Assembly: GCA_019634955.1 (NCBI GenBank)
Contig: JAHCAK010000014.1
Span: 1 to 64,000, forward strand
Length of the DNA: 64,000 nucleotides
DNA from: Burkholderiales bacterium
Lineage (GTDB): Bacteria; Pseudomonadota; Gammaproteobacteria; Burkholderiales; Usitatibacteraceae
Direction: 5' to 3'
Each line of letters begins with the position of its first letter. Within the stretch, counting starts at the first letter, position 1. The translations under genes were made by a program, and so were the position numbers. This document shows, piece after piece, positions 10,420 to 56,369 of this stretch. Below the pieces are notes generated by a model. It searched no databases, was not told where the DNA came from, and was given only the letters and a program-made list of their open reading frames with translations.

Positions 10420-11397
10420 GTGAACGACATGGGCGGGGAGCTCGCCGTCACCTGGGCCGACATCGACGCCGCCGCCGCGAGGCTCGCGGGCGTGGCCCAC
10501 CGCACGCCCGTGATGACCTCGCGCACGTTCGACGCGCGCACGGGCGCCACGGCCTTTTTCAAGTGCGAGAACTTCCAGCGCATGGGGGCGTTCAAGTTCC
10601 GCGGCGCCTACAACGCGCTTTCGCGCCTGCCGGCGGAGGCGGCGCGCCGCGGCGTCGTCGCCTTCTCCTCCGGCAACCACGCGCAGGCCGTGGCGCTCGC
10701 GGGCCGGCTGCTCGGCATCCCGGCGGCGATCGTGATGCCGGCCGACGCCCCCGAGGTGAAGGTCGCCGCCACGAAGGGCTACGGTGCCGAGGTGATCTTC
10801 TACGATCGCGCCGCGGGGCAGGATCGCGAGGCTTTCGCGGCCGGGATCGCGGCCGAGCGCGGGGCGACGCTCATTCCCCCGTTCGACCACGCCGACGTGA
10901 TCGCGGGGCAGGGGACGGCCGCCCGGGAGCTGCTGGAGGAGACCGGCCCGCTGGACTGGCTCTTCGTGTGCTGCGGCGGCGGGGGCCTCCTTTCGGGATG
11001 CGCCGTGGCCGCCAGCCACCTCTCGCCGGGGATCAAGGTCGTGGGCGTCGAGCCTGCGGCAGGCGACGATGCCGCGCGTTCGTTCCGCACGCGCACGCTG
11101 CAGCGCGTGGAAAACCCCGTGACGATCGCCGACGGGGCGCGCACGCAGTCCCTTGGCCGCCTCACTTTCCCGCTCGTCCTCGCCCACGTCCACGACTTCC
11201 TCACGGTGACCGACGCGGAGCTCGTGGAGGCCATGCGCTTCCTCTGGGAGCGGATGAAGCTCGTCGTCGAGCCGACCGGCGCGCTCGCCACGGCCGGGCT
11301 CCTGTCCGGCCGCCTGGACACGCGCGGGGCAAGGGTGGGAGTGATCCTGTCCGGCGGCAACGTGGACCTGCGCGCGGCCGCCAAGCTCTTCGCGTGA
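10420..11397 (+). CDS. PLP-dependent threonine/hydroxyaspartate ammonia-lyase or serine racemase family enzyme
   Basis: 325-residue fold type II PLP enzyme. The PLP lysine is Lys59 in MGAFKFRGAYNAL. SSGNHAQAVALA is the substrate carboxylate loop and CCGGGGLLSGCAVA is the tetraglycine phosphate loop. It has no C-terminal ACT domain, so it is not biosynthetic IlvA. FKCENFQRMGAFKFRGAYN closely follows the threo-3-hydroxy-L-aspartate ammonia-lyase and serine racemase/dehydratase group, which deaminates beta-hydroxy amino acids. GTG at 10420 is used, with ATG at 10429 an alternative. Its stop overlaps the GTG start of the acyltransferase gene. The precise substrate is uncertain. Confidence 0.85.
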   Translation: MNDMGGELAVTWADIDAAAARLAGVAHRTPVMTSRTFDARTGATAFFKCENFQRMGAFKFRGAYNALSRLPAEAARRGVVAFSSGNHAQAVALAGRLLGIPAAIVMPADAPEVKVAATKGYGAEVIFYDRAAGQDREAFAAGIAAERGATLIPPFDHADVIAGQGTAARELLEETGPLDWLFVCCGGGGLLSGCAVAASHLSPGIKVVGVEPAAGDDAARSFRTRTLQRVENPVTIADGARTQSLGRLTFPLVLAHVHDFLTVTDAELVEAMRFLWERMKLVVEPTGALATAGLLSGRLDTRGARVGVILSGGNVDLRAAAKLFA

Positions 11398-11996
11398 GCC
11401 GCCCGATCCCCGAGTTGCCGGCGCCCATCCCGCGGCGCGGGGGCACCGCGTGGCGCTGGATCGGGCGCGCGATCATGCGCCTCTCGGGCTGGGGCATCGA
11501 GGGCAACTTCCCGGCGCTCGCGAAGATGGTGGTGGCGGTCGCTCCCCACACCTCGAACTGGGACTTCGTGCACGGCGCGGCGGCGATGTTCGCACTGGAC
11601 CTGCGCGTGTCCTTCATCGGCAAGCACACGCTCTTCGTGTGGCCGTTCTCGGCGTTCCTGCGCTGGATGGGCGGCATTCCCGTGGACCGCAGGTCCGCGC
11701 ACGGTGTCGTCGGCGATGCGGTCGAGTCCTTCCGCGGGAGCGAGGCGCTGGTCCTCGCCATCGCGCCGGAGGGCACGCGCCGCAAGGTCGAGCGGTTCCG
11801 CACGGGCTTCCTGCACATCGCGAGAGGCGCCGGCGTCCCCGTGGTGCTCGTGGGGCTCGACTACGCCACGCGCACGGTCCGCATCGGGCCGGTGCTCGAG
11901 GTGGGCGAGGACGTCGAGGCCGAGCGCGCGCGCATCGAGGCGTATTTCGCGGCCATCCCGGGACGCCATCCCGAGCTGGGGATCCGCCCCCGCTGA
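11394..11996 (+). CDS. PlsC-like 1-acyl-sn-glycerol-3-phosphate acyltransferase family protein
   Basis: 200 residues, with GTG at 11394 overlapping the previous stop (GTGA). The acyltransferase catalytic motif H(X4)D is HTSNWD, about residues 45-50. The phosphate-binding motif III is PEGTRR, near residue 126. A short hydrophobic segment near the N-terminus (IGRAIMRLSGW) could give membrane-surface association. At about 200 residues it is shorter than E. coli PlsC and closer to the glycerol acyltransferase-like lipid-remodelling proteins. The frame is open far upstream, but that part is the shadow of the ammonia-lyase gene. It is probably the last gene of the forward operon. Confidence 0.88.
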   Translation: MSRPIPELPAPIPRRGGTAWRWIGRAIMRLSGWGIEGNFPALAKMVVAVAPHTSNWDFVHGAAAMFALDLRVSFIGKHTLFVWPFSAFLRWMGGIPVDRRSAHGVVGDAVESFRGSEALVLAIAPEGTRRKVERFRTGFLHIARGAGVPVVLVGLDYATRTVRIGPVLEVGEDVEAERARIEAYFAAIPGRHPELGIRPR

Positions 11997-12065
11997 GCCA
12001 TCGTGGTGCTGCGCTGCACCATCGTGTCGCACCGCGACTCGCCGCGCGCCTTTTCTTGGGTGGCA

Positions 12066-12078
12066 TAAAGTCTTGAAA
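12066..12078 (+). promoter_or_regulatory. IHF-like site upstream of the sigma-54 promoter
   Basis: TAAAGTCTTGAAA fits the inverted IHF consensus YAANNNNTTGATW at all but one defined position. It lies about 30 bp upstream of the sigma-54 element at 12107-12123, where IHF commonly bends DNA between an enhancer-bound activator and RpoN polymerase. A short degenerate match like this can occur by chance. No activator binding site was recognised in 11997-12065. Confidence 0.4.
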
Positions 12079-12106
12079 TTGAATGAAGAAACCGGCAGCG
12101 CCCTGG

Positions 12107-12123
12107 CTGGCACGGTCCCTGCA
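12107..12123 (+). promoter_or_regulatory. sigma-54 (RpoN) promoter
   Basis: CTGGCACGGTCCCTGCA matches the RpoN consensus YTGGCACGNNNNTTGCW with one mismatch (C for the first T of TTGC). The GG (12109-12110) and GC (12121-12122) doublets have the obligatory spacing. It resembles the pilin sigma-54 promoter at 56354 in this same window. No coding sequence follows on this strand. The predicted start, near 12134, coincides with the first base of a stem-loop. Confidence 0.65.
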
Positions 12124-12133
12124 ATGCCTCGGC

Positions 12134-12214
12134 GTCGGCGCGCCCTCGGGCGTGCCGGCAGTTTCTCCTCCGAGAGCGGTTTAGCCCGCCGGCATCCACC
12201 GGCGGGCTTTTTTT
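12134..12214 (+). ncRNA. candidate small RNA, about 81 nt, sigma-54-dependent
   Basis: From the predicted start the transcript has three parts. First is a 5' stem-loop, 12134-12159, with 11 pairs including two G-U and a CUCG loop. Next is an unpaired linker, 12160-12182, containing UUUCUCCUCC, which is complementary to Shine-Dalgarno sequences. Last is a perfect 10-bp terminator hairpin, 12183-12208, ending in seven U. This is the standard architecture of an Hfq-dependent trans-acting sRNA. It lies in the 276-bp gap between a forward operon and a reverse gene, so it is not an mRNA leader. The structure was read by hand; expression and targets are unknown. Confidence 0.5.
12183..12214 (+). terminator. 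strong intrinsic terminator (plus strand)
   Basis: Perfect inverted repeat AGCCCGCCGG / CCGGCGGGCT around a six-base loop (CATCCA), followed by seven T (12208-12214). It would end the candidate sRNA, and also any read-through from the acyltransferase operon that ends at 11996. Confidence 0.9.
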
Positions 12215-12230
12215 GCCGCGTCGCCACCAA

Positions 12231-12253
12231 AAGAAAAGCCCGCCGAAGCGGGC
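12231..12253 (-). terminator. intrinsic terminator of the Bug-protein gene (minus strand)
   Basis: On the minus strand the six-base stem GCCCGC / GCGGGC closes a TTCG tetraloop and is followed by TTTTCTTTT. It lies about 20 bases after the stop codon of the minus-strand solute-binding protein gene. It sits back to back with the plus-strand terminator, insulating the two converging transcripts. Confidence 0.85.
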
Positions 12254-12272
12254 CTTTCCGGGATCGCGACAC

Positions 12273-13241
12273 TCAGTCCGCGTAGATGCCGGCCTTCTTG
12301 ATGATCGGGGCCCACTTCTCGACCTCGGCCTTCACGTGCCTGGCGAGGGCGGCGGGCGTGGCCTGGTCCTGCGGCACCGGCTCGGTGCCGAGGTCGGCGA
12401 ACTTCGAGACCACGAGCGGATCCTTCAGCGCCGCCTGCAGCGCGGCCGAGAGCTTGTCGATGGCGGCCTGCGGCGTGCCCTTCGGGGCCCACATCCCGTG
12501 CCAGATGCCGACCTGGAAACCCGGCACGCCCGACTCCGCCACCGTGGGGAGGTCAGGCAGGGCCTTGATGCGCTGCGCGGTGGTGACCGAGTAGGCCTTC
12601 ACCTTGCCGCCCTTGATCTGCGGGATCGTGTTGGTCGTCTGGTCGCACATGAAGTCGACCTGGCCGCCGATGAGGTCGGTCATGGCCGGCCCCGTGCCCT
12701 TGTACGGCACGGTCGTGAGGTCCGTCTGGATGGCGGTCATGAGGAGCATGCCGCACAGGTGCGAGGCCGCGCCGACGCCGGCGTTGGCGTAGGTGACCTT
12801 GTCCTTGTTCGCCTTCACGTAGGCGATGAGCTCCTTCATGTCCTTCGGCGGGAAGTCCTTGCGGGCGATGAAGGTCATCGGCACGTCGGTCACCAGGCCG
12901 ATGGGCGCGAGGTCCGTTTGCGGGTTGTAGCCGAGGTTGCGGTAGAGCGTCACGCTCGTGGAGATGCCGATGTGCATCAGCACGAGGGTGTAGCCGTCGG
13001 GCTTCGAGGCCGCGACCTTCTTCGGGCCGATGGTGCCGCCGGCGCCGGCCACGTTCTCCACGATGACGGACTGGCCCAGCGTCTTCGACATCGACTGCGC
13101 GACCAGCCGCGTGACGGTGTCGGTGGGGCCGCCGGCCGCGAAAGGCACGACGATGGAGATGGTGCGGTTGGGGTAGTCCTGCGCGAGGACCGCGGTGGAT
13201 GCGACGAGGGCCGCCAGGGCGGCGGCAAGCTTGCGGAACAT
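12273..13241 (-). CDS. Bug/TctC-family periplasmic solute-binding protein (orphan)
   Basis: 322-residue substrate-binding protein of the tripartite tricarboxylate transporter family, exported by a signal peptide (cleavage likely after VLA, before QDYPNRT). VPFAAGGPTDTVTRLVA and VENVAGAGGTIG are typical of Bug proteins, as is the SKPDGYTLVL segment. It has a strong ribosome site (AAAGGAGG) and its own terminator, and is not accompanied by tctAB on its strand. It therefore either shares the TctAB pair encoded at 15.4-17.4 kb or acts as a carboxylate sensor, as proposed for some Bug proteins. The ligand cannot be predicted by eye; Bug proteins bind diverse carboxylates and amides. Confidence 0.92.
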   Translation of the reverse strand: MFRKLAAALAALVASTAVLAQDYPNRTISIVVPFAAGGPTDTVTRLVAQSMSKTLGQSVIVENVAGAGGTIGPKKVAASKPDGYTLVLMHIGISTSVTLYRNLGYNPQTDLAPIGLVTDVPMTFIARKDFPPKDMKELIAYVKANKDKVTYANAGVGAASHLCGMLLMTAIQTDLTTVPYKGTGPAMTDLIGGQVDFMCDQTTNTIPQIKGGKVKAYSVTTAQRIKALPDLPTVAESGVPGFQVGIWHGMWAPKGTPQAAIDKLSAALQAALKDPLVVSKFADLGTEPVPQDQATPAALARHVKAEVEKWAPIIKKAGIYAD

Positions 13242-13353
13242 CGGTTCTCTCCTCCTTTGGATGGTGCGCTCGACGGCAGCCGGACCGGCTGCCGGCCGCC
13301 CCGTGGCGGGATTATCCCTTGTTTTGCCGCCCGTGGAGCGGGCGGCGGCCCCC

Positions 13354-13359
13354 TATAAT
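13354..13359 (+). promoter_or_regulatory. -10 element (TATAAT) before the AmpE/CbiB-like gene
   Basis: A consensus TATAAT lies 24 bases before the TTG start at 13383. TTGCCG at 13324-13329 is too far (24-bp spacer) to be a normal -35, so the promoter assignment rests on the -10 alone. The region 13242-13353, between this gene and the divergent Bug gene, must also hold that gene's promoter, which I could not pinpoint. Confidence 0.45.
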
Positions 13360-56353: not shown

Positions 56354-56369
56354 TGGCACGCCGATTGCA
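56354..56369 (+). promoter_or_regulatory. sigma-54 (RpoN) promoter of the pilin gene
   Basis: TGGCACGCCGATTGCA matches TGGCACG-N4-TTGCA at every defined position. The GG (56355-56356) and GC (56367-56368) are correctly spaced. The predicted start, near 56380, leaves a leader of about 61 nt before the pilin ATG. Pilin control by RpoN with PilSR is well known in Pseudomonas and is inferred here; pilSR genes are not in the window. Confidence 0.88.

Follow-up and report, generated by a model that had tools for sequence, protein, structure and literature searches.

Can a sigma-54 promoter that stands apart from any gene on its strand drive a small RNA of its own? The question is raised by positions 12,066 to 12,214 of a window of 64,000 nucleotides (nt), the whole stretch of DNA analysed here, from a Burkholderiales bacterium of the family Usitatibacteraceae (GenBank assembly GCA_019634955.1, contig JAHCAK010000014.1, positions 1 to 64,000). 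Sigma-54-dependent small RNAs (sRNAs) are few. An earlier note on this DNA had proposed one here, overlooked by usual annotation. At least three families keep the promoter, the outer hairpins and the terminator; the hairpins covary and no Rfam family matches at threshold, so that a sigma-54-dependent sRNA is strongly supported; positions 12134-12214 very probably form a real small RNA gene, previously unreported. The whole reading, which we regard as probable, is that of a trans-acting sRNA of nitrogen limitation that would depend on NtrC and sigma-54, act against Shine-Dalgarno (SD) sequences and repress the mRNAs of solute-binding proteins. All features lie on the forward (+) strand unless another strand is given.

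The predicted -24/-12 promoter, TGGCACGGTCCCTGCA at 12108-12123, has one mismatch to the consensus TGGCACGNNNNTTGCW. It is near-consensus, as the earlier note had described it, and starts one base after the 12107 given there. A scan of the window allowing up to two mismatches returned four matches against 8.2 expected from shuffling, so the motif in a single sequence proves nothing and conservation in relatives is needed. The element (GG-N10-GC) was found at the right distance in 24/24 intact loci, as against 0.18% per composition-shuffled locus; the search expression for this count was composed after the sequences had been seen. The 24 loci are the window itself, 21 from a scan of one genome per species, and L010 and L011 from a search of the family. 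The variant in L069 is CGGCATGCCGTTTGCA. Control of the small RNA by sigma-54 is very likely on this pattern of conservation.

The predicted RNA of 81 nt occupies 12134-12214, its start taken from the promoter spacing and its end from the terminator, in agreement with the length of about 81 nt proposed before. Stem-loop 1 (SL1; 12134-12159, 11 bp) begins exactly at the predicted start, as had been claimed; its sequence is variable and covarying, and at least 5 bp are predicted in 24/24 members. Stem-loop 3 (SL3; 12183-12214) is an intrinsic terminator with the perfect 10-bp stem (12183-12208) and the seven T, running to 12214, that the note had described, and at least 7 bp are kept in 24/24 members. 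Between the two lies the near-invariant core TTTCTCCTCCGAGAGCGGTT (12162-12181), which stands in an alignment of 18 RNAs as a block of very little variation between variable hairpins. The fold of 12134-12220 has a predicted energy of -58.9 kcal/mol (z -7.4 against dinucleotide shuffles).

The CUCCUCC of the core had been taken for an unpaired linker. This did not hold: a 5-bp mini-hairpin (SL2; 12163-12176) is predicted instead, in 21/24 members, with a CUCC tetraloop at 12168-12171 as the anti-SD element. The loop positions have mean unpaired probabilities of 0.84-0.95 across members in the fold prediction, which suggests that CUCC would be presented in an exposed loop, rather than merely unpaired. 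The core hardly varies, and covariation is thus unable to support the mini-hairpin. Both outer helices do covary in the eight RNAs of g3, where 94.2% of cells are paired and eight pairs have double changes; the covariation score was 0.450 versus 0.229 in shuffles (0/500 reach it) and at most 0.143 in slid controls. L021, with a stem shifted by one column, was left out of this test. A small protein encoded in the RNA was ruled out by eye only, the differing hairpin lengths of the members shifting the frame.

The same evidence bears on the simplest other explanation, that the unit is merely the terminator of the acyltransferase operon with a fortuitous promoter in front and no separate RNA. The terminator lies about 190 nt past the forward operon and could end it, and the promoter motif by itself is not above chance; against this, promoter, 5' hairpin and near-invariant core are conserved in 24/24 loci, and the Ferrovum loci keep the unit although no counterpart of the acyltransferase gene of the window turned up ahead of it there. 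We give this explanation hardly any credence.

How widely the unit occurs was asked with a DNA search, a covariance model and a core search. The DNA search found it in 7/8 genomes of the genus and 19/28 of the family, the window's own genome being included in both counts. The covariance-model search that the earlier note had recommended was run over 300 genomes of the order with a model of core and terminator only, promoter and 5' hairpin being kept as independent tests, and placed members in two further families, f17 and f42. Thirteen of its loci were inspected: the two strongest (61.6 and 46.4 bits) were true members, and the other 11 (26.9-36.3 bits) had no exact core and were rejected. One of the rejected loci, L034, proved to be a real RF02278 RNA (61.2 bits) at the same place as L348. 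The 18-letter core with at most one mismatch was present in 13/399 genomes of the order, one of these (G164) being a chance match with neither promoter nor terminator. With one genome taken per species, a core scan returned 25 matches, 21 of them with a sigma-54 promoter, 20 by a first search expression and L069 by a second; L073 was cut by a contig end, and L071, L074 and L076 (Bacteroidota, Roseburia, a coding region) were chance matches without the promoter. A terminator scan of the four chance core matches found none after the core. L074 has one terminator-like site on the other strand, and in L071 a 4-bp GC stem before TTTTT was seen by eye, below the limit of the terminator scan. Loci with both the core TTTCTCCTCCGAGAGCGG and a -24/-12 promoter occur in the window's own family, in Ferrovum and in another lineage besides; among the carriers with a name are Betaproteobacteria bacterium GR16-43 (CP019169) and, in four records, uncultured Ferrovum. 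The GG/GC doublets, hairpin and terminator, whose loss in relatives the note had named as the outcome that would speak against its proposal, were all kept in 24/24 intact loci.

Which activator would serve the promoter was approached through a gene of nitrogen uptake. In 20 genomes of the window's family, the DNA upstream of amtB carries a sigma-54 element together with an NtrC dyad of a form close to GCACC-N5-GGTGC; the gene between this region and amtB is presumably glnK. From the start of the dyad to the -24 element downstream there are exactly 108 bases in 18/20 genomes, and 109 and 111 in the other two. With a matrix learned from these 20 sites, 14/24 sRNA upstream regions reached at least 10 bits versus 1.3% of 854 control windows; for at least 7 bits the figures are 18/24 and 4.6% (Mann-Whitney p 1.7e-13, a value too small because the members are related). 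In the window, NtrC-like site A (TGAGCCATCGTGGTGCT, 11994-12010, 6.8 bits) lies 114 bp upstream of the -24 element and overlaps the acyltransferase stop codon, and site B (TGCACCATCGTGTCGCA, 12015-12031, 9.7 bits) lies 93 bp upstream. The two are 21 bp, or two helical turns, apart, an arrangement that recurs in relatives: in the window's genus and in g4 there are mostly two NtrC-like sites, 21 bp apart at -93/-114 or -91/-112. In several other members the pairs are 31-32 bp apart, as in several amtB promoters with a second, weaker site. NtrC itself scored above the model cut-off in 24/28 family genomes, among them the window's own (690.5 bits, cut-off 558.6).

The IHF-like site that had been reported upstream of the promoter was also recovered, at 12066-12078 on the minus strand, with 8/9 consensus positions and a placement conserved in relatives. 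Sites with at least 8/9 positions occur in 18/24 members versus 4.2% of 960 random windows, and 17 of these 18 are in fixed phase, at -30/-31 or -41/-42. A search for the N5 dyad pattern across the window's own genome was too unspecific and was dropped. Elsewhere in the window, a perfect sigma-54 consensus, TGGCACGCCGATTGCA, stands at 56354-56369 (+); the best NtrC-like site upstream of it has 2.0 bits only.

Control of the small RNA by NtrC is likely, judging from these sites. The GGTGC half-sites could instead belong to something else, the sRNA being sigma-54-dependent under another enhancer-binding protein. One member lacks an NtrC-like site and five further members are weak, and most of the 42 matches to the NtrC model in the window's genome are other proteins, which leaves room for such an activator; the matrix was learned from amtB promoters, an independent set, and most members have pairs 21 or 31-32 bp apart, which favours NtrC. 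Another activator is unlikely, though the most serious of the alternatives.

Is the RNA a known one under another name? No Rfam family reached its gathering threshold, whether in the window or in the loci of 17 relatives. Below threshold the window RNA scored 34.3 bits for NmsRb, 29.3 for anti-hemB, 28.9 for ncS54 and 26.4 for RF02278; for NmsR (RF02877) the 34.3 bits compare with a gathering score of 52, and for RF02278 the 26.4 bits compare with 50, so that neither family takes in the window RNA. The closest likeness in design is to RF02278 (Betaproteobacteria toxic sRNA, or bdhR1) and S17 of Bordetella pertussis, which likewise combine a CU-rich stretch complementary to ribosome-binding sites with a terminator (PMC11722255, PMC5688073). 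S17 has a sigma-A promoter and RNase E processing, whereas the window RNA has a predicted sigma-54 promoter and a different core. The segment after the core is CGGTTTAGCCC in the window and CGGTTTGCCC in many relatives, in which other CGGTT or CGGCT variants occur. The S17 segment before the terminator is GGATTTAGCCC, as read from the S17 primer, and by this difference from CGGTTTAGCCC the window RNA falls outside the S17 type. Candidate S17 targets in B. pertussis include solute binders of transporters, and direct repression was demonstrated for BP2158 (PMC11722255, PMC5688073).

These observations bear on the proposal that the window RNA is a direct orthologue of S17 or RF02278 and thus already described. 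The shared CU-rich anti-SD idea, the terminator and the 26.4 bits speak for it; it has to contend with a score below the gathering value, a different segment after the core and, in S17, a sigma-A promoter and RNase E processing. RF02278-like matches, all below the cut-off, also occur in 16/28 family genomes at other loci, and 12 genomes carry both RNAs, the window type and an RF02278-like match elsewhere. Orthology is very improbable. Of 23 RF02278-like loci, 16 were viewed at the right place, and 15 of these 16 RNAs begin with CGTCTCCTCC or AGTCTCCTCC. The RF02278-like sRNAs (29-45 bits; L361 at about 1500-1579, L354, L358 and others) were directly after phasin genes in 3/3 cases tested; these phasin-linked sRNAs may form a branch of the toxic-sRNA/S17 group that is not yet listed.

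Other known sRNAs share single traits with the window RNA. NmsR/RcoF (RF02877) of Neisseria also has three stem-loops and a UC-rich anti-SD stretch after the first, but is a sibling pair with sigma-70-like promoters, a link to the stringent response and targets that include genes of the tricarboxylic acid (TCA) cycle (PMC5362039). NrsZ of Pseudomonas resembles the RNA proposed here in its control, NtrB/NtrC inducing this sRNA with sigma-54 when nitrogen is limiting; it lies beside ntrC and has about 226 nt (PMC8395346). The window RNA, in contrast, has a predicted 81 nt and lies on contig C6, ntrC being on C24, and so does not qualify as NrsZ; the sequences were compared through Rfam only. An sRNA of Enterobacteriaceae, presumably the one named GlnZ, is alike in its effect. 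It lowers carbon metabolism under nitrogen limitation, but is released from the 3' untranslated region of the glutamine synthetase mRNA and has no sigma-54 promoter of its own (PMC9731577). EsrF of Escherichia coli O157 is directly controlled by NtrC as well, but is repressed by it and made within the glnALG operon (PMC8092317). The open-access literature searched, with subscription papers outside its scope, contained no report of the window RNA and no nitrogen sRNA for these Betaproteobacteria. Most probably the window RNA represents a family apart, which shares the anti-SD idea of S17 and the control of NrsZ-like nitrogen RNAs.

What would such an RNA act on? Eight genomes were searched for genes that have GGAGGAGAA 3-10 bases before ATG; all 67 places were taken and gave 57 open reading frames (ORFs) of at least 60 amino acids, or 56 after removal of one duplicate. 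Solute-binding proteins, each checked singly, made up 16/56 (nine TctC, three Peripla_BP_6, three DctP and one Peripla_BP_4), and TonB plugs were found in three of the 56 proteins. The control consisted of ORFs behind GGAGGTGA, the sequence that pairs with 16S rRNA; of 125 places listed, 90 were taken and gave 49 ORFs of at least 60 amino acids. Solute-binding families were found in 0/49 (Fisher p 1.4e-5 versus 16/56). This control is weak: going by the families listed, no more than about 18 of its ORFs have a Pfam match, some ORFs lie inside genes and many are probably not real genes; with the control restricted to ORFs with a Pfam match, 16/56 versus 0/18 gives p 0.008. The sequence CGGAGGAGAAA before ATG was also tried, but gave 13 matches in 28 genomes, of which four were merely the sRNA read on its antisense strand, and was not used. 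In the window's own genome, L222 on contig C32 encodes a protein with the core-complementary SD GGAGGAGAAGAGAAATG. From its first residues this protein seems to us to resemble a short-chain dehydrogenase, possibly acetoacetyl-CoA reductase; together with the phasin-linked sRNAs, the SD of L222 hints at a link to polyhydroxybutyrate storage.

The proposed mechanism, from transcription and nitrogen control to translational repression, targets and any role of Hfq, is built on the conserved promoter, the NtrC-like and IHF-like sites, the RNA structure and the locus. Phosphorylated NtrC would bind the site pair, 93-114 bp ahead of the -24 element; IHF would bend the DNA between this pair and the promoter, and sigma-54 RNA polymerase would initiate at about 12134 under nitrogen limitation. 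The 5' hairpin may protect the RNA, the mini-hairpin would display the CUCC of CUCCUCC, a sequence like that at the 3' end of 16S rRNA, and the terminator would close the unit. The earlier note had proposed an Hfq-type sRNA, and a U tract is present. The CUCC loop would make the first contact, with GGAG, and pairing with SD sequences of the GGAGGAGAA type would then extend over the whole core. Ribosomes would thereby be blocked on a set of mRNAs, many of them for the periplasmic solute binders of transporters for carboxylates and amino acids, and carbon uptake would be braked when nitrogen is short. Repression by an anti-SD small RNA is plausible, and the solute-binding protein genes are hypothetical targets, the evidence for them being suggestive only. 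More tentative, and on balance doubtful, is the wider proposal that a nitrogen-starvation RNA showing the 16S anti-SD core (CCUCC) in its near-invariant hairpin competes with ribosomes for purine-rich sites and so forms a global NtrC-controlled brake on solute-binding proteins in several betaproteobacterial families.

Several findings, in addition to the overstated significance and the weak control, weigh against the NtrC/sigma-54-dependent anti-SD reading. On the side of the control region, the window's best NtrC-like site (9.7 bits) is equalled in 2/39 control windows of its own locus, 6/24 members stay below 7 bits (L052, L055, L056, L060, L066, L068), and amtB-matrix scoring found no NtrC-like site at all upstream of L052. 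For the structure, the six RNAs of the window's genus pair in 95% of cells with little variation, and their covariation score is reached by 53/500 shuffles; no mini-hairpin is predicted in L060, L066 and L069, the last of which has one stem base changed. For the targets, two g3 genomes have very few core-complementary SDs (one and two matches), the tctC genes, perhaps a large family, may share their SD by descent, and RNAduplex energies failed to separate tctC from other starts and were not used. For the distribution, G003, G009 and G017, of the same family, 98-100% complete and with NtrC above the cut-off, had no sRNA match in the DNA search; these are either losses or diverged copies.

If true, the reading links nitrogen status to carbon uptake in Betaproteobacteria through an apparently complete NtrC-IHF-sigma-54 control region joined to a CU-rich anti-SD core. 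Out of the analysis come a covariance model and a promoter, together with a short list of candidate targets, and GR16-43 (CP019169) is a carrier with a complete genome.

As had been described, the unit lies between a forward operon and a reverse gene. The operon, of PALP and acyltransferase genes, stops at 11996, 5' of the RNA unit; its acyltransferase gene (PF01553) occupies 11394-11996 and has a homologue upstream in 16/24 loci searched. On the other side, tctC (12273-13241, minus strand), the receptor of a tripartite tricarboxylate transporter (PF03401), is the convergent neighbour and a candidate target, with the SD aaaGGAGGAGAgaaccgATG. The forward ORF at 12213-13358 in the ORF list is the opposite strand of tctC. 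The neighbourhoods were compared by searching five window proteins in the 24 loci, several of which run into a contig end. In 10/24 loci, namely loci of the window's genus and of g4 and four Ferrovum-type loci (L055, L064, L066, L068), the same strand carries a CobD/AmpE-like gene downstream of the unit, and a convergent tctC adjoins the RNA unit in 7/24. The tctC genes adjoining the sRNA mostly carry a GAGGAGA ribosome-binding site. None of the five proteins was found near L052, L053 and L054. The common acyltransferase and CobD/AmpE-like neighbours suggest that the locus is a single old one and not a mobile element.

The neighbourhood also allows the idea of a regulatory leader of a downstream gene to be judged. 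In L057, L069 and L070 tctC follows on the same strand, 216-275 bases after the RNA unit, which speaks for a leader; the neighbouring tctC is convergent in the window's genus, however, and a strong terminator with a U tract closes the unit in 24/24 loci, so that a leader is scarcely credible. Between the unit and tctC, a GC stem with a TTCG loop and a T run on the minus strand was seen by eye at 12236-12253; absent from the terminator scan listing, it is probably the terminator of tctC.
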